From assembly GCA_028283145.1 (NCBI GenBank), contig JAPYNY010000024.1, forward strand, positions 1-46,064: DNA of 46,064 nucleotides, in the 5' to 3' direction. Origin of the DNA: Candidatus Hopanoidivorans cymbastelae (lineage in GTDB: Bacteria > Actinomycetota > Acidimicrobiia > Acidimicrobiales > Hopanoidiivorantaceae). This document shows positions 29,954-46,064 of the stretch, piece after piece. A program made the position numbers and the translations under genes. Each line of letters opens with the position of its first letter. Positions within the stretch are counted from its first letter, which is position 1. The notes under the pieces are model-generated. The model saw nothing but the letters and a program-made list of their open reading frames with translations, was not told where the DNA came from and ran no database searches.

Positions 29954-30007
29954 AAAAACCGGCAAGCCAAGCCAGCGCAAGGAAAGCCCCAGAGGAAAAG
30001 CCACACC

Positions 30008-30715
30008 GTGGAAGTTGTAGTTTTCATCGCTTGTGCCGTCATCTGTGTGACGGGTGCCATCGGTGTGGTCGTCGCTAACAACCCAGTCCACTCAGCGCTG
30101 ATGCTGGTGGCTACGCTCTTCGGGGTGGCGGTGCTGTTCTTGACGATGGACGCGCAGTTTCTGGCAGCAGTTCAGATAATCGTTTACGCGGGTGCCATCG
30201 TGGTGCTGTTTTTGTTTGTGATCATGCTGTTTGGGGTGTATCGCAGCGAAAACCTGCGGGTGGAGCCGATTGCCGGGCAGCGCCCGCTGTCTATTGCGGT
30301 GGCGGTATCCACTTTGGCTTTGGCGGTGATCATCGTGGCGGTTGCCACAGGCGGTTCCCCCACAGGGCAACAAGCAGCCACCGAGCCCTTGGTGGACAGC
30401 GTTACGGTTCACTCCACTTCTGCCACCGAAGCGCTGACTGACAACCAGCCCATAGGTGAAGAAATCTTCCCCAACGTGGAACAGCTCGGGCGGGTCATCT
30501 TCACCGACTATGTGTGGGCTTTTGAAATCACTGCCGTGCTTTTGACGATTGCCGTTGTGGGAGCCATCGCTCTGGCACGCCGCCAACGGGGTGAAGAGGA
30601 GTCAGCCGCTCCCGTTTCGCCCGCTGCCGCGCCCGCCCCCGCAGCCGCAGCCTCTGCTGCCTCCGCCCCTATTGGCTCCGCAGCCGCTTCCGCCACCCAC
30701 ACCGAGGAAGCATGA
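30008..30715 (+). CDS. nuoJ: NADH-quinone oxidoreductase subunit J
   Basis: Small membrane subunit with five predicted helices. The family hallmark is NNPVHSALMLVATLFGVAVLF, followed by FLAAVQIIVYAGAIVVLFLFVIML. A long periplasmic-type loop (about 115-150) precedes the last helix. The C-terminal 35 residues are an Ala/Pro-rich tail. Start is a GTG at 30008 with AGAGGAAAAG upstream. The stop overlaps nuoK as ATGA. Confidence 0.94.
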   Translation: MEVVVFIACAVICVTGAIGVVVANNPVHSALMLVATLFGVAVLFLTMDAQFLAAVQIIVYAGAIVVLFLFVIMLFGVYRSENLRVEPIAGQRPLSIAVAVSTLALAVIIVAVATGGSPTGQQAATEPLVDSVTVHSTSATEALTDNQPIGEEIFPNVEQLGRVIFTDYVWAFEITAVLLTIAVVGAIALARRQRGEEESAAPVSPAAAPAPAAAASAASAPIGSAAASATHTEEA

Positions 30716-31020
30716 TGGAAGTTACAACTGCTTGGTATCTCATCCTGGGTGGAGTTCTGTTTTCCATTGGAAGTTTTGGGCTGCTTGTGCGCCGCAATCC
30801 CTTGGTGATGTTCATGTGTGTGGAGTTGATGCTGAATGCCGTCAATCTGACTTTCGTGGCTTTTGGGCGCGATTTGGGCGACATCGGTGGGCAAGCCGCG
30901 GTGTTCTTTGTGCTGGTGGTGGCCGCAACTGAGGTGGTGATCGGTCTGGCTATTGTCGTGGCGGTCATGCGCCGCCAACCCGACGCCACCGCCGACGATA
31001 TTTCCATGCTGTCGGGATAG
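30712..31020 (+). CDS. nuoK: NADH-quinone oxidoreductase subunit K
   Basis: 102 residues with three transmembrane helices, the normal size. The conserved glutamates needed for proton pumping are present in MFMCVELMLNAVNL and AATEVVIGLAIVV. The ATG overlaps the nuoJ stop, implying coupled translation. Confidence 0.95.
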   Translation: MMEVTTAWYLILGGVLFSIGSFGLLVRRNPLVMFMCVELMLNAVNLTFVAFGRDLGDIGGQAAVFFVLVVAATEVVIGLAIVVAVMRRQPDATADDISMLSG

Positions 31021-31071
31021 CTGCTAGATGAATCGCTGCCACCTGCTGCCCGCCTCCCAGAGGATCAACCG

Positions 31072-33048
31072 ATGGAATCCCTAGTCTGGCTCATTCCGCT
31101 TCTGCCGCTTGCGGGCTTTGCGTTGCTTTTGCTCGGCGGGCGCAGTCTGGGCGAACCCAACGCCGGCAAGCTGGCCACCGCCGCTACGGGCGCCTCCTTT
31201 GCAGTGTCGGTGCTAGTGTTTGTCGGTCTGCTGTTGCTGGACTCCCACGACCGCTCCTTCACCTTCACCTTGTTTTCCTGGGTGCCGTCGGGGTCGCTGT
31301 CGGTGGATGTGGGCTTTCTGGCCGACCCGCTGTCTATCACCATGGCCCTGTTCGTGACAGGCGTGAGCACCCTGATTCACATCTACTCGCTGGGCTACAT
31401 GCACGGCGACCGGGACTTCTCCAAGTTTTTCCTGTATCTGAACTTGTTTGTGTTTTCCATGCTCATCTTGGTGCTGGGCGACAACATGCTGCTGACCTTT
31501 CTGGGCTGGGAGGGCGTGGGGGCGTGCTCGTATTTCCTGATTGCGTTCTGGTTTGAAGACGAAGCCAACGCCACGGCCGGCAAAAAAGCCTTCGTTACCA
31601 ACCGGGTCGGCGATTTTGGCTTCATGACCGCCATCTTCTGGACGTTTTTCGCCTTCGGCACGCTCAACTATTCAGAGATTTTCGCTGATGCTGGCTCGGT
31701 CAGCACCACCACCGCTTCTGCTATCGTGCTGCTGCTGTGCCTAGGAGCGGCGGGCAAGTCGGCGCAGTTCCCGCTTTATGTCTGGCTGCCCGATGCGATG
31801 GCGGGCCCCACGCCTGTGTCGGCGCTCATCCACGCTGCCACGATGGTGACGGGAGGGGTGTATTTGCTGGTGCGGGTCAACCCCTTGCTGGCGGCTGCCG
31901 ACAGCTGGGTGCCTGAGATGATCGCCTGGGTGGGCTTGGCCACGGCCATCATCGCAGCACTGGCGGCAGTGGCACAGATGGACATCAAGAAGGTCTTGGC
32001 CTACTCCACCATCAGCCAGTTGGGGTTCATGTTTGTGGCTATCGGGGTGGGCGCCTACACCGCTGCGGTGTTCCACATGGTTACGCATGCTTTCTTCAAG
32101 GCACTGCTGTTTTTGGGGTCGGGCTCGGTGATTCACGCGATGGACGGCGAGCAGAATATGTCTCGCTATGGCGGGCTGGCGCGGCTGCTGCCGGTGACGT
32201 CTATCACCTTCGGGGTGGGCTGGCTGGCGATTGCGGGCGTGCCGCCGTTTTCGGGCTTTTGGTCTAAGGATGAGATTTTGGCGGGGGCGTGGAATCACAA
32301 CCGACTGCTGTGGGCACTGCTGTTGTTTGCGGCGGCGCTGACGGCTTTTTATATGAGCCGAGCGGTGATTATGACGTTTTTCGGGGAGCGACGGTGGGGG
32401 GCTGGGACGGCGGACGACTCCACTGCCCATCACCCCGACGAATCACAGACCGCCCACTCGCCCGGCGCGTCGGCACATGTCCATCCCCATAACGAACCCC
32501 CGGCCCTCCACCCGCACGAGTCTCCCCCGACCATGCTGCTGCCTCTTGTCTCTCTGGCTCTGCTGGCTGCGGTGGCGGGCGTCATCAACCTGCCCTTCGT
32601 CAAGGACACCCACTTCTTGGAAAAATGGCTGGAGCCTTCTCTGTTCCACAACGAAGCTTCTCTCAACTTCGCCGGCGGCACCAAGTGGGTATTGGCAGGT
32701 GTGGCTATTGTGGCGGGACTGGTCGGCATTTGGCTGGCGGTGAGCATCTATCTGCGAAAGTCCATGCCCGCCAGCATGGTGGAGCGAGACTTTTTCGCCC
32801 GTGCCTGGCGTTATGACGAAGCCATCAGTGCTGTGGCTGGCGGCCCAGGCAGAAAGGCCTTCAGCGCCTTGGCTTTTTTCGACCACAAAGTCATTGACGG
32901 CGCGGTGAATATGGTCGGCGGCGCGGTTCAAGTCAGCGCCAAGCAGCTGCGACGCCTCCAAACCGGCATGGTGCGAAGCTATGCTTTGGGGATCGCTCTG
33001 GGGGCTGTGGTTTTGCTGGTCTATTTCATCTCCAGAGCGAGTTTCTAG
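31072..33048 (+). CDS. nuoL: NADH-quinone oxidoreductase subunit L
   Basis: Distal proton-pumping antiporter-like subunit, 658 residues. Signatures include FLGWEGVGACSYFLIAFW, the pump-region AGKSAQFPLYVWLPDAMAGP and VSALIHAATMVTGGVYL, and the later HMVTHAFFKALLFLGSGSVIHA. A hydrophilic His-rich loop (about 445-485, with HHPDES, HVHPHN and HPHESP) separates the last helices; HPHESP is common in actinobacteria, while the remaining histidines look like an added stretch. AGAGGAT lies 8 nt before the ATG. Confidence 0.96.
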   Translation: MESLVWLIPLLPLAGFALLLLGGRSLGEPNAGKLATAATGASFAVSVLVFVGLLLLDSHDRSFTFTLFSWVPSGSLSVDVGFLADPLSITMALFVTGVSTLIHIYSLGYMHGDRDFSKFFLYLNLFVFSMLILVLGDNMLLTFLGWEGVGACSYFLIAFWFEDEANATAGKKAFVTNRVGDFGFMTAIFWTFFAFGTLNYSEIFADAGSVSTTTASAIVLLLCLGAAGKSAQFPLYVWLPDAMAGPTPVSALIHAATMVTGGVYLLVRVNPLLAAADSWVPEMIAWVGLATAIIAALAAVAQMDIKKVLAYSTISQLGFMFVAIGVGAYTAAVFHMVTHAFFKALLFLGSGSVIHAMDGEQNMSRYGGLARLLPVTSITFGVGWLAIAGVPPFSGFWSKDEILAGAWNHNRLLWALLLFAAALTAFYMSRAVIMTFFGERRWGAGTADDSTAHHPDESQTAHSPGASAHVHPHNEPPALHPHESPPTMLLPLVSLALLAAVAGVINLPFVKDTHFLEKWLEPSLFHNEASLNFAGGTKWVLAGVAIVAGLVGIWLAVSIYLRKSMPASMVERDFFARAWRYDEAISAVAGGPGRKAFSALAFFDHKVIDGAVNMVGGAVQVSAKQLRRLQTGMVRSYALGIALGAVVLLVYFISRASF

Positions 33049-33070
33049 ACGGGGAGAGCGGGCAGTTTAG

Positions 33071-34816
33071 ATGGGTTACCTGAGCAGCATTTTCAGCGGA
33101 AGCGCCACCGAAGGCTCCTTGTTTGCCAGTGTCTCCGTCCCTGACGACGTCAGTGTTGGTTTCCCTGTCTTGCCGGCACTCATAGTCATTCCGTTGCTGG
33201 GCGCGCTGGCTCTGCTGGCGATTCCAGCTTCCCGGTCTGAGCTGCTACGCCCGCTGGCCCTGCTGTTCACCACGGCTACAGCTGCGCTGTCATTCTGGCT
33301 CATTGGGGCTTATGAGATCGGGCGCAACGTAGAGCTATTTCAGTTCGTCTCGCACCATGAGTGGATTTCCTCGCTGGGCATCTCCTGGCACTTGGGGGTG
33401 GACGGCATCTCGCTGTTTTTGGTGGCTCTGTGTGGGCTGTTGTTTCCCGTTGCCATCATCGCCTTAGACCCCGACCACCACCCCAAGTCTTACTATGTCT
33501 GGCTGCTGGTGCTGGAGGCGGGTTGCATCGGCACATTCCTGGCGCTTGACTTGCTGCTGTTTTTCCTGTTCTTTGAGATTGTGCTGGTGCCGATGTATTT
33601 CCTCATCGGCAAGTGGGGACACGACAACGCCCGCTACGCTGCGGTCAAGTTCTTCCTCTATACCATGCTGGGGTCGGCCATCATGCTGGTGGGGATTGTG
33701 AGCTTGGCGTTCTTGCATGCGGCGCAGCCGGGCAACGACCTGACGTTTGACTTGGTGGAGATAGCCTCGGCCCAGTCGCTGGCAACCACCACAGCCCGCT
33801 GGATTTTCTTGGCGTTTGCGGTGGCGTTTGCGGTGAAGGTGCCGCTGTTTCCGCTGCATACTTGGCTGCCCGATGCTCACACCGAAGCCCCCACAGCCGG
33901 CTCGGTGATTCTGGCGGGGGTGTTGCTGAAGTTGGGCACCTACGGGTTTTTGCGCTTCGGGCTGTATTTGTTTCCCGAGGCTTCGGTCTATTTTGCGCCG
34001 CTGTTTTTGACTTTGGGGGTGGTCGGGATTTTGTATGGGGCGGTCGTGGCGACCATGCAGCGGGACTTGAAGCGACTGGTGGCATATTCTTCGGTGGCGC
34101 ACTTGGGGTTTATTGTGTTGGGGCTGTTCGCGGTTACCACTGAAAGCTTGGAGGGCAGCGTCTTGCAGATGGTCAACCACGGGCTTTCCACGGGGGCGTT
34201 GTTTTTGCTGGTCGGGTTCATTTACCAGCGGCGGCACACCCGCGAAATCGCCAAGCTGGGCGGGTTGCAGCGCAGCGTTCCGCTGATGGCGGGGATTTTC
34301 ATGCTTGTGATGCTGTCGTCCATTGGGCTACCGGGGCTGAACGGCTTCGTGGGCGAGTTTCTGATCCTGGTGGGGACTTTTTCGGCGCACCGCTGGTGGG
34401 CTGTGGCTGCCACAATTGGGGTGATTTTGGCGGCGGTTTATCTGCTGTGGGCTTACCAGCGGGTGTTTCACGGGGGCGGTGCGGGCTGGGGTTCTGGCAC
34501 CAACGCTGCTGGCGGAGTTACCGCGCCTTCCTCCGCAGACAACGCTGCCATGCCCGACATTCGTTGGCGAGAAGGCGTGGCGCTGGCACCGATTCTGGTG
34601 CTAATTGTGTTTCTGGGGATATATCCCCGACCTGTGCTAGACCGCATTTCACCTGCAGTTGAAGACTTGGTGCAACACGTTGAAACTCACGTTGAGGGCT
34701 ACGACCATCCGTCTGTCGGGGAAGGAATCACGGGCGTGGGCGAAGCTCAGGGAGACAGCCATTCCGAGACGGCCGCTCCACCCGCCACCGGCTCCCACAC
34801 CCCTGAACTGCCATGA
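33071..34816 (+). CDS. nuoM: NADH-quinone oxidoreductase subunit M
   Basis: Antiporter-like proton-pumping subunit, 581 residues. Signature stretches are FFLFFEIVLVPMYFLIGKWG, VKVPLFPLHTWLPDAHTEAP and LKRLVAYSSVAHLGFIVLG. The N-terminus and the His-rich 40-residue C-terminal tail are longer than in E. coli. It follows nuoL after 22 bp and overlaps nuoN by ATGA. Confidence 0.96.
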   Translation: MGYLSSIFSGSATEGSLFASVSVPDDVSVGFPVLPALIVIPLLGALALLAIPASRSELLRPLALLFTTATAALSFWLIGAYEIGRNVELFQFVSHHEWISSLGISWHLGVDGISLFLVALCGLLFPVAIIALDPDHHPKSYYVWLLVLEAGCIGTFLALDLLLFFLFFEIVLVPMYFLIGKWGHDNARYAAVKFFLYTMLGSAIMLVGIVSLAFLHAAQPGNDLTFDLVEIASAQSLATTTARWIFLAFAVAFAVKVPLFPLHTWLPDAHTEAPTAGSVILAGVLLKLGTYGFLRFGLYLFPEASVYFAPLFLTLGVVGILYGAVVATMQRDLKRLVAYSSVAHLGFIVLGLFAVTTESLEGSVLQMVNHGLSTGALFLLVGFIYQRRHTREIAKLGGLQRSVPLMAGIFMLVMLSSIGLPGLNGFVGEFLILVGTFSAHRWWAVAATIGVILAAVYLLWAYQRVFHGGGAGWGSGTNAAGGVTAPSSADNAAMPDIRWREGVALAPILVLIVFLGIYPRPVLDRISPAVEDLVQHVETHVEGYDHPSVGEGITGVGEAQGDSHSETAAPPATGSHTPELP

Positions 34817-36366
34817 CGACAGCAGCTGTCCTTCAGCCCACAGGGGTGCTAGCCCAGACTTTCGTTGAGGCCACCCCGTCAGTCAACTGGGTAGCTCTGA
34901 TTCCCTACCTTGTCTTGATTGGCGGCGGGCTGATGCTGCTGACGATAATGTCGCTGGCTGGTCGCTGGCTGCCGGGCTGGTTTTCGTCTGGCTACACCGC
35001 TTTGGTTGGAGTCGGCACGCTGGGGTCAGCTATCGGCATCTGGGTCTATATTGGCGAAGAAGGCCCGTCCGCCACGCTGTCTGGAGTGGTCGGCATTGAC
35101 CGATTTTCTGTCTTCGTCATAGCTGTGCTGGGCGCGGTTGTGGCTCTGGTGGCAACGCTAGCGCACGACTACATCCGCCGTGAAAATCTGTGGGGCAATG
35201 AGATTTATGTGCTGTTGATGCTGTCGGCTGCGGGCGGGGCGATTATGGCCAGCGCCAATGACTTGATTGTGTTGTTCTTGGGCTTGGAAGTGCTGTCTAT
35301 CGCTGCCTACGTGCTGGCTGCCATATATTTGCGCCGTGCGGCTTCGCTGGAGGCAGGCATGAAATATTTCGTGCTGGGAGCGTTTTCCTCGGCTTTCTTG
35401 CTGTATGGGATTGCGTTGATTTACGGCGCCACCGGCTCCACCAAGCTCGCCAGCATCGCTGAGTTTTTGGAGGCGGGGTCGCTGGCGGAAGACGGCTTGT
35501 TGCTGGGTGGTTTTGCGCTGATGCTGGTGGGGATGTTCTTCAAGGTGGCAGCCGTGCCGTTCCACGCCTGGACGCCCGATGTCTATCAAGGCGCGCCAAC
35601 GCCTGTGGTGGGTTACATGGCAGCGGGGGTGAAGATTGCGGGGTTCGCGGCTTTGCTGCGGGTGTTCGTGGGGGCGTTCGGCTCCTACGGCAGCGACTGG
35701 CAGCCGATTGTCTATGCCATTGCAATCGTGACCATGCTGGTGGGTTCTGTGGCTGCCATTGCGCAAGGGGACGTCAAGCGAATGCTGGCGTATTCCTCTA
35801 TTAGCCATGCCGGGTTTGTGCTGGTAGCGGTGGAAGCGAACACTGCGGACGGCACGGCTGCGGCGCTGTTCTACTTGGCGGCCTATGCGATGATAGCCGT
35901 GGGGAGCTTTGCGGTGGTTTCGGTAGTGGCTGGAGCGGGGGATGCCCGCACAAGCATTGAGGATTATCGTGGTTTGGCAAGCCGACACCCCGTGCTGAGT
36001 GCTATGCTAATGGTGATGTTGCTAGCCCAGGCAGGAGTGCCTTTTACCTCTGGATTCTTCGCCAAGTTCTTCGTGATAAGCGCAGCCGTTGACGCTAGGT
36101 CGTACTGGCTGGCTATCACAGCGATGGTGCTAGCAGTGGTTGCTGCGTTCATCTACCTGCGCTTGCTGGTGGCAATGTATTTGCCAGGGGACGCTCAGGG
36201 GGAAAACACCAGCCCCGCAGAAGCCAAACTCAACATCACCACAACTTCCAGAGAACGACTCGTCATAGCAGCCTGCGCTAGCTTCACCGTAGCCTTTGGT
36301 ATCATGCCGGGAGTGTTGCATGAGCTAGCAGGGGATGCTATAACCAACCTTACACTATCACCATGA
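34813..36366 (+). CDS. nuoN: NADH-quinone oxidoreductase subunit N
   Basis: Third antiporter-like subunit, 517 residues. Diagnostic segments are LIVLFLGLEVLSIAAYVLAA, FKVAAVPFHAWTPDVYQGAP and VKRMLAYSSISHAGFVLVA. This is the natural end of a nuo operon. Its stop codon TGA (36364-36366) overlaps the ATG of an unrelated, AT-rich GHKL ATPase gene, so that gene is probably cotranscribed from the nuo promoter. Confidence 0.96.
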   Translation: MTTAAVLQPTGVLAQTFVEATPSVNWVALIPYLVLIGGGLMLLTIMSLAGRWLPGWFSSGYTALVGVGTLGSAIGIWVYIGEEGPSATLSGVVGIDRFSVFVIAVLGAVVALVATLAHDYIRRENLWGNEIYVLLMLSAAGGAIMASANDLIVLFLGLEVLSIAAYVLAAIYLRRAASLEAGMKYFVLGAFSSAFLLYGIALIYGATGSTKLASIAEFLEAGSLAEDGLLLGGFALMLVGMFFKVAAVPFHAWTPDVYQGAPTPVVGYMAAGVKIAGFAALLRVFVGAFGSYGSDWQPIVYAIAIVTMLVGSVAAIAQGDVKRMLAYSSISHAGFVLVAVEANTADGTAAALFYLAAYAMIAVGSFAVVSVVAGAGDARTSIEDYRGLASRHPVLSAMLMVMLLAQAGVPFTSGFFAKFFVISAAVDARSYWLAITAMVLAVVAAFIYLRLLVAMYLPGDAQGENTSPAEAKLNITTTSRERLVIAACASFTVAFGIMPGVLHELAGDAITNLTLSP

Positions 36367-38315
36367 TGCACAGCAAGCCAACCTGGAAATTTCCAGAGGA
36401 ATCACAAGGCGTTGAAGGCATGGGTTTTGATCACCCAGCTTTAACAATATTTAGCGGAGATAGAAATACTACTCTTTTTAGAGAGTGTTTGCAGAATTCA
36501 CTGGATGCGGGAGTTAAGGGAAATGAAGTCACTGTGGAGATCAAATTGGAGCAATTGTCTGCAGAGTTGTTTGACCCAGAAAGTTTAATTGAAGCGCTTA
36601 ATTCAAGCTGCAAGTCTGATTGGAATAATGATAGTGGAAGAAGTCAGTTCAAAGAGGCAATTAAGTTGTTTAAGCAGAGAACAATTCCCACTCTTTCGAT
36701 TACTGATGTAAATACTATAGGAGCAGCTGATGAAAAAACCCAAGGTAGAAAAATTAGTCCTTGGCAAACAATGGTTAAGTCCTCTGGGTTTTCACAAAAA
36801 TTTGATGGCAGTTTAGGATCTTATGGATTAGGAAAGCATGCTTGTTTTAATGTTGGGCCTTCACGTACTGTTTTATATTCAACTTGCTATTTAAATCAGA
36901 GCGGTGGATATTCAAGAAGATTTTTAGGTAGAACAATACTGATTACTCATTTTAAGAAAAATGAGCAACAGCATTCATATAATGGGTATTTAGGGAATGA
37001 TTGTCAAGCACTAGCTGATGATGAAATACCACAACAGTTCATGATGGATACACCGGGAACAAAAATTTTAATTCCTGGCTATAGAGTTCATGATATAGAA
37101 AGTGAAGAAAATTGGGAATTGCGTGCTTTAAACGTAGCTGCAGAAAATTTTTTCTTTGCTATAATTCATGGAAAGTTGGGTTTGATAATTGGTGAAAATC
37201 TAGTCCTTACGAAGGATTCTATTATTGAAGGTGGTGAATGTTGGGAATTAATTAAAAGTGAAAGAACAAGAAACTATATTAGAATTGCAAGTGAGACCCC
37301 TAAAGCCACTACCTATATTGAAGGAATAGGAGACATTGAATTACGTATAAGTGTTGTAAATGATGATAGCATTTCTGATAGACGAGCTTTAGCATTAGTT
37401 CGAAGTCCGGGATTGAAAATAGCAGATGATCCAAAGAGTCTAGGTCCAGTAAATAGAAGTATGCCAAAGGACTGGAATCCATTTGTGGCCATAATTGCTT
37501 GTACACCACGAAAAGATGAGATAGATTGGATGCTAAAAGAATGCGAAGCTCCTTGTCACGATAGTATAGCATTGGATCATATTCGAACTGCTATGAATAT
37601 TCAAAAGCACAAGGATGCAGCAAAAATATTTAAAGAATTTCGTTCATGGATTTATGATAATATTAAAGAATATGCTGCTCCAAATCGAATTACTGTGATG
37701 CCTGACACCCCAGTTTTAAAGAGGTTAGGATTATTTATTGAAGATGATATTCAAGGAGAGCGATTGAAATTATCAGATTTAAGGCCAGTTGATCGAGCTC
37801 CAAGGGAAAGTATCTACTCAAATAATAACCAAAATTCAGATGAACCAACTGAAATAGATTCTGAAGATGGAGAAGAAAATTTTATTCCCTTAGATGAGGA
37901 AAGTAATGGGGGAACACGGCCCGGTACAGACGTTTCAGAAGGAAAAACAAAAGTTATTATGAAGAAGCGGTATGAAACAGAAGCAATTTTTGTACCAATA
38001 TATGATGAAAATGGAAAAAAATTAACTCATAAACTAAGAGCACACTTTACTTTGCCAGCTAGATTAAAAGATGAAGAACTTATTTTTGAATTTTTATCCA
38101 TTGGTGAAGATGAAAAGGGCTATAGGCCAACAATAAGATTTATTGAATGTAAAGATGTTAGTTTAAGGAGTAAGCAAAATATATTTTATGTTCCTAAGAG
38201 TTTATGTGAAGAAAATAAACGGTTATCGGTTGATATTTCGCTTAATGAGGCTATAGGCACTTCAACTTTTAATCTTAGACATATAATCCAGACTAAAGGT
38301 GAAGGCCGACTTTAA
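36363..38315 (+). CDS. GHKL-fold ATPase, first gene of an AT-rich cassette
   Basis: 650 residues. The N-terminal ATPase motifs are clear: N-box FRECLQNSLDA (about 39-49), an Asp motif SITDVNT (112-118) and the GxxGxG lid GSLGSYGLGKHACF (149-162). Together they place it in the Hsp90/MutL/MORC/histidine-kinase superfamily; there is no histidine phosphorylation site. A Glu/Asp-rich stretch (about 500-535) precedes the C-terminal domain. MORC/MutL-like ATPases of this kind are known from prokaryotic restriction-like gene clusters, so a defence role is plausible. Codon use is strongly AT-biased against the nuo genes. The ATG overlaps the nuoN stop; the second codon (36366) or an ATG at 36420 are alternatives. 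Confidence 0.75.
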   Translation: MMHSKPTWKFPEESQGVEGMGFDHPALTIFSGDRNTTLFRECLQNSLDAGVKGNEVTVEIKLEQLSAELFDPESLIEALNSSCKSDWNNDSGRSQFKEAIKLFKQRTIPTLSITDVNTIGAADEKTQGRKISPWQTMVKSSGFSQKFDGSLGSYGLGKHACFNVGPSRTVLYSTCYLNQSGGYSRRFLGRTILITHFKKNEQQHSYNGYLGNDCQALADDEIPQQFMMDTPGTKILIPGYRVHDIESEENWELRALNVAAENFFFAIIHGKLGLIIGENLVLTKDSIIEGGECWELIKSERTRNYIRIASETPKATTYIEGIGDIELRISVVNDDSISDRRALALVRSPGLKIADDPKSLGPVNRSMPKDWNPFVAIIACTPRKDEIDWMLKECEAPCHDSIALDHIRTAMNIQKHKDAAKIFKEFRSWIYDNIKEYAAPNRITVMPDTPVLKRLGLFIEDDIQGERLKLSDLRPVDRAPRESIYSNNNQNSDEPTEIDSEDGEENFIPLDEESNGGTRPGTDVSEGKTKVIMKKRYETEAIFVPIYDENGKKLTHKLRAHFTLPARLKDEELIFEFLSIGEDEKGYRPTIRFIECKDVSLRSKQNIFYVPKSLCEENKRLSVDISLNEAIGTSTFNLRHIIQTKGEGRL

Positions 38316-38351
38316 TTTTCAGTAATTGTATAATAATAGGAGCAAATTTTA

Positions 38352-39287
38352 ATGAGATATGCACCAAATCGTGGATTTCTTTACCCTGTCCTAGGCCAGA
38401 GAGAATTTTATTATCCAAGCAAGACTTTTTCTGTTAATCTTGATTGGGATGTTTCTGATCAAAACATTGTTTTTTGGGCAGACTTTGATTTAAATGTTAA
38501 AGCAATCAATGATTTTATTGACGAGCAAAAAGCAATTTGTATTATCTGGGCATATTGCAAGACAACTTCCTTTCGTGAAATCTACAGGCCAATTGAAAAA
38601 AATTTAAGACGTGTAGAGGGTTCAATTTCAATTCATGATGTCAGGGGAACAATACAATTTCATCCCTCTATATTGGCTGTAGAGGACATAATTTTTTCTT
38701 TAGAGGAGGCAAATAAAGACTTTTTGGAGCAAGGTGATTTTGTAGAAATTAGCAAAGGCAGACCGCTTGCTGTTCATAAACCAAGCAATGGGGAGCTAGA
38801 CGTTGATTCTGATAGAGCTACACATGACATTTTTCAGCTTATGGATGAAGAAAATTTAGAGGATGGAACTTGGGAAATAGTTGCAAACACAAGTGAAACA
38901 ATCATTTTTCTTAAGGCAAATCAAAAGACCAGGAATGAATTTAAGCAAACCTATGGAAAGCAATTTCTTGACATACCTACGTTATACCTTTCAGCTATGG
39001 TGGAAGCTCTAAATGAGTTTTTGCGTAATCCATATATTGATGGTGAGGAGAGACCTGACTCAACAAGATGGACAGGTGTAATTTGGAATAAACTTGACAA
39101 ACTTGGAATTAAGGTAAAATCAGGTTATGACGGTGCAAATTTTGTTAAACATGATGATAACAATTCTTTTGTTACTCCATTCTGGGTGGCTCAGAAGCTT
39201 TTAGAATCACCGTTGTGTGATTACAATAAATTTTTGGAGAAGATACAGGTCAATCAAGAGCAAGGAACAAATAATGACACAGAATAA
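38352..39287 (+). CDS. Hypothetical protein, second gene of the AT-rich cassette
   Basis: 311 residues; I do not recognise the family. The N-terminus (APNRGFLYPVLGQREFYYP) and the following alternating hydrophobic pattern suggest a beta-rich N-terminal domain. The C-terminal half is helical and acidic. No nuclease, helicase or methylase motif is convincing. It follows the GHKL gene after 36 bp, with AATAGGAGC about 9 nt before the ATG, and overlaps the third gene by 14 bp. The same low-GC codon use marks it as part of one acquired unit. Confidence 0.7.
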   Translation: MRYAPNRGFLYPVLGQREFYYPSKTFSVNLDWDVSDQNIVFWADFDLNVKAINDFIDEQKAICIIWAYCKTTSFREIYRPIEKNLRRVEGSISIHDVRGTIQFHPSILAVEDIIFSLEEANKDFLEQGDFVEISKGRPLAVHKPSNGELDVDSDRATHDIFQLMDEENLEDGTWEIVANTSETIIFLKANQKTRNEFKQTYGKQFLDIPTLYLSAMVEALNEFLRNPYIDGEERPDSTRWTGVIWNKLDKLGIKVKSGYDGANFVKHDDNNSFVTPFWVAQKLLESPLCDYNKFLEKIQVNQEQGTNNDTE

Positions 39288-40050
39288 AATTCATCCTCTA
39301 ACTGATGCAGGCTATAATTTGCTTATAGATGTCGCTAGGAATTCTCCTAATTTATTTTTTGAGCCGTCCTTAAGTCAAATAACTTCAAAGTTCTTTGAAG
39401 TAGCTGAGGAAAGGAATGAAAAGAATCTTTTCAATTTTGAAAAATTTTGGGTTCCTTTATTTCCTTTGGATCATCTATCAAATGATGTTGTTCCGGGTAA
39501 TAAATTAGATGCTGACCATACCCGTTATATTAGAAATGCTTTGCCCACAATTACTCCGGCTGATATGTCAGACAGAAGGGTTTTGGCATCAATTTGCTGT
39601 TTTAATTTAGTTGGATACATAAATACACGCTGGAGCTTAAGCAAACATTTTAGATCGTCAAGTAGAGCTGATCAAATTAAATTTGTTGAATCACATTGGA
39701 TGGGAAATATTGGAAACATAAAAATATCAAATGCAGCAGCTAGAATTTGGTGGCTAGGTGAATTTGCAGCTAGAGCATCCAAGTTTTCAAATAATTCTTT
39801 TGATGAATTGTTAGAGATTATGGCTGAAAATGCGAGATTATACGATCAAATGTCAGACCGATTATTTATGGCTTCAGATAAAATTCGAGCTATGATTTTG
39901 GATATTATGATCGATAAAGGTATAAGTGAAGCAAAAGATATTGACTTTATCATGACCCAGCTTAATAAAATGGCTGGTGGAATTAGTTTGGATATATTAA
40001 GTAAAGAAGATTTAAAGGAAAAAGTTACGGCGGCCCTCCCCCCAAAATGA
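39274..40050 (+). CDS. Hypothetical protein, third gene of the AT-rich cassette
   Basis: 258 residues from the ATG at 39274; a longer in-frame reading from 39217 lies inside the previous gene. Entirely soluble and largely helical. The segment ISNAAARIWWLGEFAARAS and its position recall DUF6339-type proteins that accompany GHKL ATPases in restriction-like clusters; I hold that with low confidence. No catalytic motif is visible. Its stop codon overlaps the start of the PP-loop gene (ATGA at 40047-40050). The base composition changes to GC-rich within the last few codons. Confidence 0.68.
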   Translation: MTQNKIHPLTDAGYNLLIDVARNSPNLFFEPSLSQITSKFFEVAEERNEKNLFNFEKFWVPLFPLDHLSNDVVPGNKLDADHTRYIRNALPTITPADMSDRRVLASICCFNLVGYINTRWSLSKHFRSSSRADQIKFVESHWMGNIGNIKISNAAARIWWLGEFAARASKFSNNSFDELLEIMAENARLYDQMSDRLFMASDKIRAMILDIMIDKGISEAKDIDFIMTQLNKMAGGISLDILSKEDLKEKVTAALPPK

Positions 40051-40910
40051 GGAGCCGCCCCCCAGACCCTGCTTTACGGGTATTATCGCTGGGTGGCGGC
40101 ACTCAGTCCACAGTTTTAGCTCTACTGGCCGAGCATGATTTTTTTGAGCACAAGCCTGATGTAGCCATTTTTGCCGACACCGGCTGGGAGCCACCTGCGG
40201 TTTATAAAAATATTGAATGGTTGCGGTCGGTTATCTCGTTTCCCATTGAAACTGTTAGCATTGGTAGGTCTTTGCGAGAAGATGTAATAGCTGGTGTAAA
40301 TACAAGTGGGTCGCCATGGTTAACTATTCCGACCTTTCTGTCTGCTCCAGATGGAACTCCTGCGGGTATGAACTGGCGCCAATGTACTACACATTACAAA
40401 ATCAAGCCCATCAAAGAGCAGGTGCGTCGGCTGCTGGGGCTTTCACCTCGTTCGCCTGTGGCTTACTCCACCTCTATGGAGATGTGGTTGGGCATCACCA
40501 TTGACGAAGCCGAGAGGATGCGAGTCTCGCCCGACCCGTGGATTGTCAATTGTTATCCGCTGATTGACCTTGGCATGTCACGCGAGGACTGCATTGAGTG
40601 GTTTCATGGCGAGTATCCGGGGCGGGGATTGCCCCGCTCGGCTTGTGTCGGCTGTCCTTATCATTCGGCTTCCAGTTGGGTGCAGATGCGTGAAACCGAC
40701 AAAACTTCATTTGACGATGCGGTGGCGATAGACAAGCTGCTGCGCTCGCCCGATCACAACGCCACATCCATGTTTCGCAACAGGGTGTTTCTGCATTCTC
40801 GCCGGCTGCCCTTGGAAGAAGCAGTGGCCCTAGACACAGCGGAGTTAGCCGCCACCGCCAGCGAAGACGAACACTGGGGTAACGAATGCGCTGGAATCTG
40901 CGGCACTTGA
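40047..40910 (+). CDS. PAPS-reductase-like PP-loop protein
   Basis: 287 residues. The PP-loop SLGGGTQST (14-22) marks the adenine-nucleotide alpha-hydrolase fold used by PAPS reductases, tRNA thiolases and DndC. Also present are FADTGWEPP (42-50), QCTTHYKIKP (112-121), CVGCPYHS (200-207) and a C-terminal CAGICG, so four or five Cys could hold a metal or Fe-S centre. This family is scattered on phages and mobile elements and its reaction is unknown. It lacks the flanking sulfate-assimilation genes expected for true PAPS reductase. Composition matches the chromosome, not the three AT-rich genes it is coupled to. Confidence 0.78.
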   Translation: MRSRPPDPALRVLSLGGGTQSTVLALLAEHDFFEHKPDVAIFADTGWEPPAVYKNIEWLRSVISFPIETVSIGRSLREDVIAGVNTSGSPWLTIPTFLSAPDGTPAGMNWRQCTTHYKIKPIKEQVRRLLGLSPRSPVAYSTSMEMWLGITIDEAERMRVSPDPWIVNCYPLIDLGMSREDCIEWFHGEYPGRGLPRSACVGCPYHSASSWVQMRETDKTSFDDAVAIDKLLRSPDHNATSMFRNRVFLHSRRLPLEEAVALDTAELAATASEDEHWGNECAGICGT

Positions 40911-41085
40911 GGGTTGGCACCTGAGGTTGGGGTTGGGGGGGTGTGCCAAGGCAATGCCCAATGCCTGAACATATAACATACCCTGAGCATGCCTAGGGGG
41001 TAGCAGGCAGCACCCCCATCCCAAACACTCCTGCACCAAAGATGCTGAAGATGCTGTGCAACACCCCCTGTCTATATTCAGGGCT

Positions 41086-41589
41086 ATGGAAATCGCAGAC
41101 TTCAATCCATATCTATCGCCCGCTGTTTTGGCAATGGGGGTCATCATCGGTTGGGTTTTTGCCCTGCGCGCCTAGGCACGGGAGAAAATTCTGGGCGCCC
41201 GAGACAGCATATGCTCGCTGGCTGAAATACTGTTGGAGGAAAACCCAGAAGAGCCAGACAAGATTGGGGCGGAGGCGTATTTTGAACGCCCAAGATTCGC
41301 AACGTGGCGGAAGTCAAAATGGGATTCAACAGCGGTCATCTGCAACACTGAGACGAAGAAGGCAAAAGTTTCGTTTTTCTTCTCCCGCACAAAGCTAGTC
41401 AGTGAGGCAGCTGATGAAGCTTTCACATCAATCTCGTCCACGCTTGCATTGGATGCTCAGACAAAAAAGGCCATTGAAAACTTTGCTGCTCAATTATCTA
41501 AATCAGAAGAAGGCAAAAGGCGTTTTTGTGTCAAGGGCAATTTGGGCGATTCAACGGTTGTGCTGCTTTTTGTTGTGTTTAAGGCATAA
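41086..41589 (+). pseudogene. Membrane-anchored protein gene split by one in-frame amber codon
   Basis: From the ATG at 41086 the frame encodes 29 residues including a transmembrane helix (LSPAVLAMGVIIGWVFAL), then TAG (41173-41175), then 138 more codons to a TAA at 41589 without another stop. The region after the TAG continues naturally (AREKILGARDSICSLAEIL) into an acidic, helical cytoplasmic domain. TATATT (41073-41078) ends 7 nt before the ATG, the leaderless geometry used elsewhere here. Annotating only the downstream part from a TTG at 41233 would give 118 residues without a ribosome site. Family unknown. Either a nonsense mutation (CAG to TAG would restore it) or readthrough. Confidence 0.6.
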
Positions 41590-41628
41590 TATAGCTACTA
41601 CCTGCTTCAAGAAAGACTTGAGTGAAAA

Positions 41629-41790
41629 ATGCGGAAAAGAAAACGCCAAAGCCAAGTGCCAAAAAATCAAAATCTTGTGCCACCCGGGGGCATCGATTTT
41701 TTTACGGAGGATGGCCGCAAGTTCACACTCGTGCAATACATAATAAGCGACAAGCCTTTGGTGCGCAGCCACACCCGCTGGCCTACGTAA
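41629..41790 (+). CDS. Possible 53-residue basic protein
   Basis: A short open frame with a basic N-terminus (MRKRKRQSQVPK) and a structured-looking core (GIDFFTEDGRKFTLVQYIIS). It follows the amber-interrupted gene by about 40 bp. No ribosome site is obvious and I do not recognise it, so the call rests on sequence quality alone. Confidence 0.3.
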   Translation: MRKRKRQSQVPKNQNLVPPGGIDFFTEDGRKFTLVQYIISDKPLVRSHTRWPT

Positions 41791-41948
41791 GGATTGGGGC
41801 TGCTTGCTGCCCTGTCAGGTGCTCGGCAGGTAGCTTCGCCCCCGCTCAGGGCAACAGCCCTTTCAACTCCAATAACTCCTGAATGGACCAACATATGCTG
41901 CCTGCCTGTGGTGAGGCATGACGGCTACTCGTGTCCGCAGGGCTGAGT

Positions 41949-42665
41949 TCACAACCTTCCGATTAGCTCTTCCAGAGCGTCCAAGAAGCTGGGATCGTAT
42001 TTTTCCTCCACATGCCGCTGGTTCCAAAGCCCCGACTGGCGCACCTTAGATTTGAGGCTGAAGTGTCCGAGCCACTGCGGGGAGGGCGGGTCAAGCGGCG
42101 GCTTTTCGTAGTTGCTGAGCAGGGCGATGGAGTTGCGCTCAATCACTCCACGCAGGCTGTGGCGGCTGGGTGGGTCGTCAATGGCTAGCCAAAGCAGTTC
42201 CATCTCGCCTAGCACAGCACTCACTGCCCGCTCTATCGGCTGCTCAGCTTTGCGGATTGTTTTTGTGGCTGTCTTGCCTGCGTTCCAAGTGGGGCAGATG
42301 TGTTTGTCTCGCTGCATCAGAGCCTCTCCGACTAGTTTGCGAAACACCGACCCACGATGATTCCCGCCCCCTGTGCTGGCTGGTCCACGATGGTTGGACA
42401 GGCGCCCCCAAAGAGTAGAACGGGAATTTTGACTGACAGCGTGCGTGCCGACACGGATGACGCGAGAGCGGGAGCCACTGCTGGGGCTGCTAGTCAGGGT
42501 GTTGCTGCGTTGCTCGTCCGCTTGACGGAAGAAATAAATCCCTCGCTTCGGCCAGTCCATCGCTCCCGTGCAATCTCTGAGCTTGCGTGCCCCACTCAGC
42601 CGCTCTTCCAAGTTGTCTAGGAGATGATAGAACTGGATGAGATGGTCTAGCCGAGACGAAGCCAC
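41949..42665 (-). CDS. GIY-YIG nuclease-family protein
   Basis: 238 residues. The pattern RGIYFFRQADE (about 41-51), RVIRVGTHA (68-76), then TLWGRLSNHRG (84-94) and GNHRGSVFRKL matches a GIY-YIG-like family common in genomic islands. GIY is intact, while the YIG position reads RVG, and Arg in GRLSNHRG would be the usual catalytic Arg. GIY-YIG enzymes cut or nick DNA. Whether this variant is active is uncertain. It is one of three minus-strand genes (with Mrr and an AAA ATPase) forming a defence-like block, but each is separated by 60-160 bp. Confidence 0.75.
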   Translation of the reverse strand: MASSRLDHLIQFYHLLDNLEERLSGARKLRDCTGAMDWPKRGIYFFRQADEQRSNTLTSSPSSGSRSRVIRVGTHAVSQNSRSTLWGRLSNHRGPASTGGGNHRGSVFRKLVGEALMQRDKHICPTWNAGKTATKTIRKAEQPIERAVSAVLGEMELLWLAIDDPPSRHSLRGVIERNSIALLSNYEKPPLDPPSPQWLGHFSLKSKVRQSGLWNQRHVEEKYDPSFLDALEELIGRL

Positions 42666-42724
42666 TATGAGAAATTTACCACTTGTGCCATATCATTCTG
42701 GTATTCAGACTCTTGCCGTCAAGG

Positions 42725-43555
42725 CTAAATGCTCTCAAAAAAACTTTTATCAATTTTGAAGGAATCTTTTTCGTCTATTCCTAGTTGGTATTTCGCAAGC
42801 AAATCACACAACTCCTCACCATTGATCAGGTTTATCTTAGGAGCACCATCGCGACTTGCTTCTATGCGTGCGCTTTTAGTAAATGCTCCAGTTGTGATAA
42901 ACAGTCCATGATCAGTTCTTCCAGCCATAGCCCCACGAAAATCTCGGATTTGATCAGGCCCAACGCTTCCTTTGTAACGCTTACACTGAACTGAAACAGG
43001 AAAGCTGATAAGCGATATATGCCATTCCCCTAAAATATCAATACCACCATCACCTGGCTTTCCAATATTGTGCAGTTTTTCAAAACCCTCTTCCCTAAGA
43101 AGACGCATAGTTAGCCGCTCAAACGCATTAGGCCCAATTTTTTTCAAAATTTCCAGCAACTCCTTCTTCCAAATTTTTATTTCTTTTCTTTTCTGATTGC
43201 TGCTCTTAGAGTTTGTTGCATAATATTCATTAATTATTTTGTTTAGGGTTTTTTCAGCTTCGTCCCGAGGTGCTTTTAGAAATTCAACTCCTTTCTTTGT
43301 TATCGACCACACACCCCGTTCACTATTTTCTGCAAACCCAATTTTATTGAGACTAGTTCGCGCCCAACTCATTTCAAAATAAACTTTAGGATCACCATCC
43401 TTGTAGCACTCCTCAAGCTGTTCATCGGTGATGTTGCATATCTCAATAAGTGCGTCTTTCAATTCAGAGACAGTGGCTGAGCCTCCAAGTTTTTGGATGG
43501 CTTGAAGAGTCGGAAGGTGAAAGTCTTCTTGTTTCGGAAGTTTTTGATCAGTCAT
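42725..43555 (-). CDS. Mrr-type restriction endonuclease
   Basis: 276 residues from the ATG at 43555, which has AGAAAGGTC just upstream; a longer reading from 43624 adds 23 unconserved residues. The N-terminal half is the Mrr winged-helix DNA-binding domain (LPTLQAIQKLGGSATVSEL to WSITKKG). The C-terminal PD-(D/E)xK nuclease has FERLTMRLLREEGF, GGIDILG (Asp about 173) and the QxK triad in VQCKRYKG (about 190-192), then LFITTGAFTKSA. Mrr enzymes cut DNA carrying foreign methylation (type IV restriction). Codon use is more AT-rich than its neighbours, suggesting horizontal acquisition. Confidence 0.9.
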   Translation of the reverse strand: MTDQKLPKQEDFHLPTLQAIQKLGGSATVSELKDALIEICNITDEQLEECYKDGDPKVYFEMSWARTSLNKIGFAENSERGVWSITKKGVEFLKAPRDEAEKTLNKIINEYYATNSKSSNQKRKEIKIWKKELLEILKKIGPNAFERLTMRLLREEGFEKLHNIGKPGDGGIDILGEWHISLISFPVSVQCKRYKGSVGPDQIRDFRGAMAGRTDHGLFITTGAFTKSARIEASRDGAPKINLINGEELCDLLAKYQLGIDEKDSFKIDKSFFESI

Positions 43556-43714
43556 TTTGACCTTTCTTGGTTTGGCTGGATGTGCATCTGCTTTTAGACA
43601 GCAATAGGCGAAAAACGGGGCCACCCATTTTGTCCCTTAGCCATTAGAAACTAATGCAAAGCATATTCTACGCAGACAATTCCCCAGCCACTTCACTCGC
43701 ACTAAGCAATCACC

Positions 43715-44917
43715 CTACTCATCGCCAACCCCAAGTGGCAACCGGCCCATTTCAGTGAACTCCCCATCCCAAAGCCTTCGGGCGAAGTCCACATAGTTGA
43801 GAATCAGCACGCCCTCGTCGGTTAGTCTTGAACGTTTCTGGCGGCATACCACTATAAGTGTTTCAAAGCTCTGATGCTTTTGCTTGAGCCTGAGCAAGCC
43901 CTTGAGGTGCTTGTCAGTGATGTTCTCCGAGGATTTCACCTCAATCGCAACATGGTCTCCAAGTAAAAAATCCACTTCCGAGACACCGTCTCCCCAATAG
44001 GAAAACTTGATTTCCGACGTGCCGTGCCGCTTGTAGTCCAGAAAGGTTGAAATTTCGTGAAAAACCCAGTTTTCAAAGGCGTTCCCAAAATCTTTAGTTC
44101 CACCTTCAAGCAGCTTACCTTTCCTGGCCAGAAAATTTGCCAGCCCAACATCAGAGAAATAAAATTTGCGAGCTTTGCCCGACCTCACCCTGCCTTTTGA
44201 ATATGGTTTCAGCCACTGTCCGATTTGTGTATCAACGAGTATCTCATAATAGCTTTGGACTGTCTTGTAACTAACTCCGCATTCGCCGGCAATGTTGGAA
44301 TAATTCACCTTGCCGCCATCCCGCAGGGCTGCTATCTCCAAGAAGTCTTGGAAGCTATCCAACTTTCTCACAATGCTTTCACTGATTATTTCGTTGTATA
44401 GATAGTCTCCCACATAGTTGCTGAAGAAATCCTTAGGTTTTTTCGCCAGATATGATTTTGGGAAATAGCCGGCATTGACTATTTTCTCCAGGTTGAATTC
44501 ACCTCTTAGCTCGGAGTAAGTCAAACCCCGTAGGTCATATTTTGCTGCCCGGCCACCCAAAAAGTTTGCTCTGCTTCTAAGCAACTTGCGCTGGCTTGAA
44601 CCGCAGAGCGCGAATTTGAATCCCATGTCTTCAATCATCAGGTGTATCTCAGGCAGAAGTTGGGGCACCTCCTGAATCTCGTCTATCACGACCTGGGTGC
44701 CGGGCTGCGGTGGCGATGCCCCTAGGGCTTCTCGCAGACTTTCAGGTCTGGCCAGATATTGCCTGTAGGCATCTCTGTCCAAAAGATTGACCCAGTAGTG
44801 CTCAGTTGGTGGATAAAGCTGCTTCAATAGCGTGCTTTTACCAATTTGGCGAGGCCCCCACAGAAAGAAACTCTGCTCGCCGGGCGGGGGGAGAGATATG
44901 ATTCGGGGTATTATCAT
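43715..44917 (-). CDS. AAA-type ATPase with DUF4143 domain
   Basis: 400 residues. Walker A GPRQIGKST (21-29), Walker B VVIDEIQEVP (76-85) and the CGSSQRKL sensor-like segment identify the AAA_14 domain. The C-terminal DUF4143 region has the recurring FENWVFHEI and the PD-(D/E)xK-like DFLLGDHVAIEVKSS. A winged helix lies between. These proteins are widespread in islands and their biochemical role is unsettled. The start at 44917 follows TATAAT by 6 nt, and two palindromes upstream suggest tight repression. Confidence 0.9.
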   Translation of the reverse strand: MIIPRIISLPPPGEQSFFLWGPRQIGKSTLLKQLYPPTEHYWVNLLDRDAYRQYLARPESLREALGASPPQPGTQVVIDEIQEVPQLLPEIHLMIEDMGFKFALCGSSQRKLLRSRANFLGGRAAKYDLRGLTYSELRGEFNLEKIVNAGYFPKSYLAKKPKDFFSNYVGDYLYNEIISESIVRKLDSFQDFLEIAALRDGGKVNYSNIAGECGVSYKTVQSYYEILVDTQIGQWLKPYSKGRVRSGKARKFYFSDVGLANFLARKGKLLEGGTKDFGNAFENWVFHEISTFLDYKRHGTSEIKFSYWGDGVSEVDFLLGDHVAIEVKSSENITDKHLKGLLRLKQKHQSFETLIVVCRQKRSRLTDEGVLILNYVDFARRLWDGEFTEMGRLPLGVGDE

Positions 44918-44923
44918 AGCCTC

Positions 44924-44929
44924 ATTATA
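44924..44929 (-). promoter_or_regulatory. -10 box of the AAA/DUF4143 gene
   Basis: A perfect TATAAT on the minus strand ends 6 nt before the ATG at 44917, so the message should be leaderless or nearly so. The -35 region falls inside the first palindrome. Confidence 0.6.
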
Positions 44930-44937
44930 CTGTTGAA

Positions 44938-44988
44938 TTAGAAGTACTGCTTCTAATTTTAGCGATTTTTTAGAAGTGCTGCTTCTAA
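44938..44988. promoter_or_regulatory. Two palindromic operator-like sites
   Basis: TTAGAAG-N5-CTTCTAA occurs at 44938-44956 and 44970-44988, identical in the arms and differing by one base in the spacer. The centres are 32 bp apart, close to three helical turns, so two repressor dimers would bind the same DNA face. The first site covers the expected -35 of the AAA gene. Confidence 0.7.
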
Positions 44989-45336
44989 TTTCACCTTTGT
45001 AGGAGTGCTGCTATCGTGCTGTGTGCCTGACTGCGACAGCGAAGCCAAAGCTTGCATTGCCGCAGTTGTCCACGCTTTATGCGCCGGAGCCGGAGATAGG
45101 CAACACCGCTAAAGTGGGTTCTGGTCGCAAAATCTGCCACCCCTTGGATGCTGACCAAATCAATCCGATGCGACTCGTCTTTTGGTCGTCTTGTCCGTTC
45201 CGAATCCCCAGATGTCTGGGAGCAGCACAATGTCTATTTTGAAGTGGGAATACTGGATAAGTTCCTAGCCAAATGATGACTCCGCTGTGTAATGGACAGA
45301 CCTGATTTCATCCCGTCTGGCAGCGGACGTTTGGTG
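44989..45336. other. Interval without a supported gene
   Basis: Short open frames occur on both strands but none has a start signal or convincing composition. On the plus strand one frame ends VWEQHNVYFEVGILDKFLAK before a double stop near 45274, which could be the decayed 3' end of a gene, but the rest cannot be joined to it without assuming frameshifts. Confidence 0.4.
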
Positions 45337-45564
45337 CTAGAAAAATTCATCCACTTCAGCTCGTCCCATTTCAAGCAGGCTCAATTGAGGCTTAGACGTC
45401 CACCTGCTTGGATCAAGAGACTTTCCTCCGTATTTATTGAGCTTTCTGAGCTCGTCCTCCACGATCTCCCTAACCTGTGCCGGATTTAAGTCGTCACGGG
45501 CAGTTGACAGGTGTCTAGGCATATCATCGTTAGCTGTAGAATTGGGCAAAGGGCACTGAGTCAT
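45337..45564 (-). CDS. Small acidic-basic helical protein
   Basis: 75 residues. AGAAGGAT lies 8 nt before the ATG, a good ribosome site. The middle (NPAQVREIVEDELRKLNKYG) should be an amphipathic helix, followed by PSRWTSKPQLSLLEMGRAE. No family recognised; size and look would suit an antitoxin or a small regulator, but no partner gene is evident. Confidence 0.55.
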   Translation of the reverse strand: MTQCPLPNSTANDDMPRHLSTARDDLNPAQVREIVEDELRKLNKYGGKSLDPSRWTSKPQLSLLEMGRAEVDEFF

Positions 45565-45835
45565 GACAGGCTATCCTTCTAGAGAACCTATTCTGGCATA
45601 ATAAATCAGAAAATTAGATGCCAGTTTATGTATCAACTTTTTTTGACTGGAATTTCAGTTCAGCAACAGTTTAAGGCAGCAGGGACTCCTTGATGCCTCA
45701 GATAAGCTCCAGCTTCCTAAGCGGTTTTGAGCTACTGAGGGAAGAGGTGGACTTAGCGAGAGTTAGCCCAACCGGGTACTGTGGCTAGGGGTTGGTTGCT
45801 ATGTCGCGCTCACGTGAACTATGTGGCGGCGGTGG

Positions 45836-46064
45836 TTATGTCCAGGGGATGGTGGTGGGTGTTGGTGCGTTGTTGTAGATGAGGAGTGTGTCGCCGGGGT
45901 TGATGGTGTCGAACCAGGGGGTGTTGGTGTTGGGGGTTGGTTGTCGGCCTGGGAGGTTGTAGTTCCATTGCTGGGTTTGGGTGTTCCAGCGTAGTATCAG
46001 GGGGATGAGTTGTGTTTGGTCGCCTAGCAGGTTGGTGATCAGTTGTGGGGTTGCGCCGGTGTAG
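45836..46064 (-). CDS. C-terminus of a secreted or surface-type protein, cut by the window edge
   Basis: The minus-strand frame enters from the right edge and stays open for 75 codons to a TAA at 45836-45838. The sequence is rich in Asn, Thr, Gln, Pro and Trp (RWNTQTQQWNYNLPG, then TPWFDTINPGDTLLIYNN). This composition suits an extracellular beta-rich repeat or adhesin-type domain. The start and most of the protein lie outside the window. Confidence 0.6.
   Translation of the reverse strand, partial: YTGATPQLITNLLGDQTQLIPLILRWNTQTQQWNYNLPGRQPTPNTNTPWFDTINPGDTLLIYNNAPTPTTIPWT

Follow-up and report, generated by a model that had tools for sequence, protein, structure and literature searches.

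The window analyzed here is a 46,064-nt stretch of contig JAPYNY010000024.1 (forward strand, to which all coordinates refer), and contains four contiguous genes transcribed in the same direction (A, B, C, and D). Gene D codes for a PP-loop protein similar to phosphoadenosine phosphosulfate (PAPS) reductases, and it is read in the -1 frame of gene C. An earlier note on this DNA had reported an overlap between the start of D and the stop of the third gene, and this was found to be so, the ATG lying at 40047-40049 and the TGA of C at 40048-40050. The features of the locus are listed below (loci of other sequences are given as L numbers, and genomes as G numbers):

36363..38315, plus strand: gene A, GHKL-type ATPase-like, PDC-M33A (PADLOC E 4.8e-64), with the N-box QNSLDA and GSYGLGK motifs.
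38352..39287, plus strand: gene B, PDC-M33B (PADLOC E 4e-27).
39274..40050, plus strand: gene C, DUF6339/PDC-M33C, zero-frame product of 258 aa (PF19866 E 4.4e-19; PADLOC E 7.2e-18).
40005..40046, plus strand: part of the end of C that is also open in the D (-1) frame, ahead of the ATG of D; a shift of frame would have to fall here.
40041..40047, plus strand: slippery heptamer C_CCA_AAA, in phase of C, also present in L033, L034, L035, and L166.
40047..40049, plus strand: ATG, possible alternative start of D, overlapping the TGA of C.
40048..40050, plus strand: TGA stop codon of C, directly behind the heptamer.
40047..40910, plus strand: gene D, PP-loop (PAPS-reductase-like), 287 aa from the ATG.
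40054..40097, plus strand: hairpin predicted to stimulate slippage (arms 40054-40060 and 40091-40097), at a spacing of six nt from the heptamer.

The ATG at 39274 was chosen as the start of C by comparison with relatives. The order A-B-C matches the PADLOC models of the candidate system PDC-M33, on which, as on DUF6339, no paper was found in the open-access literature searched. A scan of GTDB contigs with D of the window retrieved relatives in L033, L034, and L035 (72, 63, and 60% identity), all three directly after A-B-C. Within the order, D was detected (E<=1e-20) in two of 397 genomes, own genome included, the second being the L033 genome (G533) with two copies. Within the class, C was detected (E<=1e-8) in five of 395 genomes (own, G961 with the same coordinates as the L034 genome, G980, G981, and G1011), always with D at its end, and at the same threshold only the own genome out of 396 of the phylum sample contained C. 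The proposal of the earlier note that D is the fourth component of the cassette was thus borne out, since the PP-loop gene also stands behind this trio in further genomes of the order and class, C and D are fused in frame in two loci, and their trees are largely congruent (see below). We read A-B-C-D as a single mobile cassette of defence type that is a variant of PDC-M33, and regard it as virtually certain that D belongs to it.

The junction between C and D was compared among the copies of the cassette. All six copies that have both genes in separate frames and an intact junction (five distinct loci) place D in the -1 frame of C, and all six contain an in-phase X_XXY_YYZ heptamer within the overlap of the two frames (C_CCA_AAA in four of the distinct loci and C_CCT_TTA in one). 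The junction codons of C are CCC CCA AAA in the window, L033, L034, L035, and L166, and CCC CCT TTA in L167. In-phase X_XXA_AA(A/G) sites were rare, occurring ten times in 8407 codons, with four of these being the junctions themselves, and ten control C genes without D had no C-run heptamer. In L167 only the last 34 nt of C are open in the D frame; this interval contains exactly one X_XXY_YYZ heptamer, and no ATG, GTG, or TTG was found in the D frame before the PP-loop. From the slip site onwards it is the D frame that is conserved, with BLOSUM sums (nine codons, six pairs of loci) of 14 to 31 vs. -9 to 14 for the C frame. Behind the heptamer, R, P, and P-(A/V)-L-(R/K)-V occupy the same positions of the D frame in the window, L033, L034, and L034b (a broken copy described below), and the C frame aligns less well.

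A hairpin was predicted 5-6 nt downstream of the heptamer in four of the five distinct loci (window, L033, L034/L035, and L167), with energies of -31.7 kcal/mol (z -4.0) in the window, -28.4 (z -2.1) in L033, and -22.5 (z -1.8) in L034. RNAalifold gave a consensus stem in which the pair 10-47 varies as G-U, G-C, and U-A, and L167 has its own, different hairpin 5 nt behind the heptamer. A scan of the junction region against Rfam gave no match. Programmed -1 frameshift sites such as those of dnaX and of insertion sequences combine an X_XXY_YYZ heptamer, a spacer of 5-6 nt, a hairpin, and an overlapping -1 frame, and the C/D junction has the same heptamer, spacer, hairpin, and overlap. The term "translationally coupled", applied earlier to these genes, understates a junction that has, besides the start/stop overlap, an in-phase heptamer, a -1 frame, and a hairpin.

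In two other loci C and D form a single open reading frame (ORF): that of L050 (G533) codes for 559 aa and matches PDC-M33C (4e-13) and SspD (1.4e-17), and that of L168 (G981) codes for 543 aa and matches DUF6339 (1.3e-24) and, below the Pfam cut-off, PAPS_reduct (0.0021). Taken together, the phase of D, the heptamers, the hairpins, the lack of a start in L167, and the in-frame fusions argue for programmed -1 ribosomal frameshifting that would yield both C and C-D. According to this model, ribosomes translating C would slip back one base at CCCAAAA (CCCTTTA in one relative), helped by the hairpin 5-6 nt downstream; those that slip would make a C-D fusion of about 545 aa and the others would stop and release C alone, so that D would be expressed mainly as the C-terminal domain of the fusion. 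From the sequence comparisons, a C-D fusion arising in this way is judged very likely in the relatives, and slightly less so in the window because its ATG gives a second route to D.

This second route corresponds to an alternative in which stop-start reinitiation yields D as a protein of its own, the heptamer and the hairpin being by-products of overlapping coding. It is suggested by the possible starts of D that need no frameshift (ATG in the window, as part of an ATGA overlap, and GTG in L033 and L166 or TTG in L034 and L035 just after the stop of C) and by the free-standing viral relatives of D that have their own start codons. But L167 lacks a usual start before the PP-loop, the starts in L033, L034, and L166 would cut into the first strand of the protein, the D frame is conserved upstream of the candidate starts, and two loci are fused in frame, and we consider reinitiation unlikely. 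Several observations besides the candidate starts weigh against frameshifting: L166 has no strong hairpin nearby; covariation is seen in one base pair only, and 156 of 500 shuffles reach its score; the 3' arm of the hairpin also encodes a conserved LGGG; three of the ten C genes without D, which are AT-rich, have some other X_XXY_YYZ within the last 20 codons; and an upstream element resembling a Shine-Dalgarno sequence is strong in L033, L034, and L035 and weak in the window, and so is not consistent. The structural model of C is poor (predicted local distance difference test, pLDDT, 69). Transcriptional slippage was rejected, by inference, because the runs at the junction (C6A4 and C5T3) are too short.

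The break of frame could also stem from one sequencing error made repeatedly in the C/A run, with C and D in one frame everywhere. The homopolymer at the junction, the two loci fused in frame, and gene A of L033, which also looks frame-broken, would fit such an error, but five separate assemblies show the same -1 offset, at two different heptamers and accompanied by hairpins, and this explanation is very improbable. A further copy, L034b, has CTCAAAA in place of CCCAAAA, a C-to-T change that destroys the heptamer, and its D is truncated; this copy shares about 92% DNA identity with the intact L166 locus.

Trees were built for both proteins, leaving out of the D alignments and tree L035 (D broken, detected by tblastn in two frames) and L034b. 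The five frameshift D sequences form a clade (100/100) and the fused pair another one, and all seven D sequences from trios group together (96/95), separate from viral and plasmid ones. The tree of C agrees in placing L167 outermost of the frameshift copies and L034 with L166, with some branches left open. This agreement indicates that C and D have been inherited together while their mode of linkage changed. Since C of the window matched no plasmid record, and no match to A, B, or C was obtained in the 80 viral loci that contain a relative of D, the free-standing D of phages and plasmids was treated as a sister branch.

The earlier note had also raised the possibility that the cassette was inserted in front of D as an older resident gene, based on a break of base composition at the junction. 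The G+C content at third codon positions (GC3) indeed steps from about 0.25 to 0.55 exactly at the C/D junction, being 0.22-0.28 in A-C, 0.55 in D, and 0.67-0.77 in nuoL-N; the break is thus real, and D is nearer to the chromosome in composition but does not match it as had been stated. The same step occurs in L167 at another site (C 0.37, D 0.77), and it is absent from L033 (C 0.51, D 0.49), L034, L166, and L168. Therefore, the break lies within the cassette itself and does not mark D as resident; perhaps A-C were exchanged in front of D in the window and L167. Moreover, no gene close to D was found in 98 other genomes of the relatives set (one distant PP-loop hit, E 2.4e-6), and nuoN, which precedes A, is present in 93 of the 99 genomes of the set, own included. 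With nuoN widespread and no close D in these relatives, D does not occur among them after nuoN without the trio. In one congener nuoN is followed by different DNA and not by D; no clean empty site was recognized there, the DNA after nuoN giving no blastn match with the window DNA after D. With relatives lacking D and with C and D co-inherited, a resident D with A-C inserted in front is extremely improbable, and this and the reading of the junction as an insertion boundary were rejected.

The identification of D as a PAPS-reductase-like PP-loop gene was upheld by Pfam, phrog, and PADLOC profiles and by the AlphaFold2 fold. PAPS_reduct matched with 22.8 bits (cut-off 22.5), phrog_424 ("phosphoadenosine phosphosulfate reductase") with E 1.7e-41, and the SspD model of PADLOC with E 7.8e-14, this last being the profile that was matched in place of DndC, the enzyme named before. 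No QueC family profile was obtained in Pfam at E<=1, PAPS_reduct and Tn7_Tnp_TnsA_C being the only families found. In an alignment of 30 sequences, the PP-loop residues G16, G18, Q20, and S21 are invariant, as are R111-x-C113, K118, D153-E154 and R157, C182, and C200-x2-C203. C281 and C285, conserved in at least 90% of these sequences, sit in a flexible C-terminal tail that we take to resemble that of CysH. The model of D (pLDDT 91, loose only after residue 271) had PAPS and adenosine phosphosulfate (APS) reductases as top structural matches (Z up to 11.9, root mean square deviation (rmsd) 3.6 over 163 residues), ahead of LarE, TtuA, NcsA, and Cap9 (9nto; Z 9.8, rmsd 4.0 over 148 residues). 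The sole solved chain hit by the D profile at E<=0.01 was PDB 21fy, "PptA" (E 1.3e-5). Based on fold and conserved residues, D probably uses ATP at its PP-loop and relies on its conserved cysteines for chemistry of the sulfur or adenylyl type, on DNA, a nucleotide, or a partner protein; the sulfur- or nucleotide-based activity suggested earlier is plausible in this light but unproven.

Cassettes with and without D differ in their neighbors. A DNA methyltransferase was found in nine of ten plasmid loci with a PDC-M33A relative (6-kb flanks), often beside Vsr and a type II or type I restriction enzyme. With the C5 methyltransferases of L044, L046, and L171, twelve of the 15 loci without D have such a gene, all except L158, L043, and L042 (L046 was counted on its M33A match alone, and L045, with an M33A match only and no clear trio, was left out). 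By tblastn with nine methyltransferase queries, none was found in the eight loci with D (window, L033, L034, L035, L050, L166, L167, and L168), nor in the window from 30000 to 46064. The difference between nine of ten plasmid trios and none of eight D loci was significant (Fisher p 0.0004), with the reservation that the absence rests on nine queries and several of the contigs are short. G533 contains both kinds of cassette: two loci with D and a third trio (L171), whose C paralog has no D match and in which a C5 methyltransferase ends next to the start of A. In L171 (G533 C2, 7150-11743), the order methyltransferase-A-B-C lies between UvrA-like and UvrB-like genes, as read by eye from the translations.

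Since most loci without D have a methyltransferase and none was found with D, we propose D as the modification enzyme of a restriction-like system. It would mark self or target at the position that a DNA methyltransferase occupies in most PDC-M33 loci, while the GHKL ATPase A and its partners B and C would do the sensing or restriction. That D is a modification enzyme in place of the methylase appears about evenly balanced, and that it uses sulfur chemistry is slightly less likely than this. As a combined statement, we consider it probable that the locus is a four-gene cassette with a frameshift-made C-D fusion in which D has a modification role, a function that we infer. Only tentatively can this be narrowed to the methyltransferase being replaced by a sulfur-handling PP-loop enzyme, made by frameshifting as a C-terminal extension of the DUF6339 subunit of a GHKL complex, in which frameshifting would set the ratio of enzyme-bearing to bare subunits and the product would be a new DNA or nucleotide modification.

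Alternatively, D might modify a partner protein or make a nucleotide signal and not act on DNA, like the QueC-like proteins of qatABCD and type IV CBASS. QatC and Cap9 are likewise PP-loop enzymes tied to a defence partner protein, the fold is common to D and Cap9, D is linked physically to C, and QatC is described as working with QatB (PMC13279940, in part). Nevertheless, D has no sequence match to QueC, resembles PAPS reductases, and appears to take the place of the DNA methyltransferase in the locus, and this role seems rather unlikely.

Compared with other known systems, the cassette has A, B, and C in the order of PDC-M33, but the matched system has no PP-loop model, and here a PP-loop domain extends C, by way of a putative -1 frameshift or an in-frame fusion. 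MORC and paraMORC GHKL ATPases have been described as sharing operons with DNA methylases, Vsr, and nucleases (Iyer 2008, PMC2292703, in part). The trios without D, beside C5/N6 methyltransferase, Vsr, and restriction enzyme genes, resemble these; unlike them, no methylase was found at the cassettes with D, and "sulfate" and "PP-loop" do not occur in PMC2292703. The phosphorothioation systems Dnd, Ssp, and type-4 BREX also use PAPS-reductase-like modification enzymes (DndC, SspD, and BrxP; PMC12839542, in part), and the SspD model is matched by D; the seven window proteins scanned included no further protein of the Dnd, Ssp, or BREX systems. No report of a programmed frameshift in an anti-phage cassette was found in the open-access literature searched, and the present case, if true, would be the first as far as these searches reach. 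Because C and D will be called as two genes by gene finders, the membership of D and what is probably a fused active subunit will escape defence catalogues. If confirmed, recoding would join the ways in which defence systems set subunit ratios, and a non-methyl modification enzyme would be indicated in the GHKL restriction-like family.

Further observations concern the surroundings of these genes. In the window, the start codon of A overlaps the stop codon of nuoN (ATGA, 36363-36366). The cassette is in this way attached to the nuo operon at its end, and may share transcripts with the respiratory complex I genes. Downstream of D, an Mrr-type restriction endonuclease accompanies a match to PDC-M57B (266 bits) on the minus strand (41949-43624), giving this area the look of a defence island. 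In L168, the gene for the C-D fusion runs into one resembling GHKL/HEF_HK (HEF_HK scoring below the Pfam cut-off); a methylase gene is described as often lying upstream of HEF_HK/Response_reg_2 pairs (PMC8011034, in part). In the genome from which the window comes, a second GHKL trio (L042, G000 C10, 5096-10150) carries immediately upstream of A a PP-loop gene (457 aa) that is SspD-like but separate and different from D, and a third PDC-M33A relative (L043, G000 C2, 421-7551) lies, by eye from the translations, near a Cas2-like ORF and a repeat-like array at the contig start. Outside the cassette, relatives of D adjoin ArdC on the Ti plasmid, are flanked by HNH endonuclease and SSB genes in a Geobacillus phage, and precede by two genes an NrdH-like glutaredoxin in Mycobacterium phage phiT46-1 (L145, 4989-6533), settings that fit DNA-related thiol chemistry but prove nothing. 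On a Mesorhizobium plasmid (L143, 5479-6798), an annotated DNA cytosine methyltransferase contains a relative of D in its C-terminal part.
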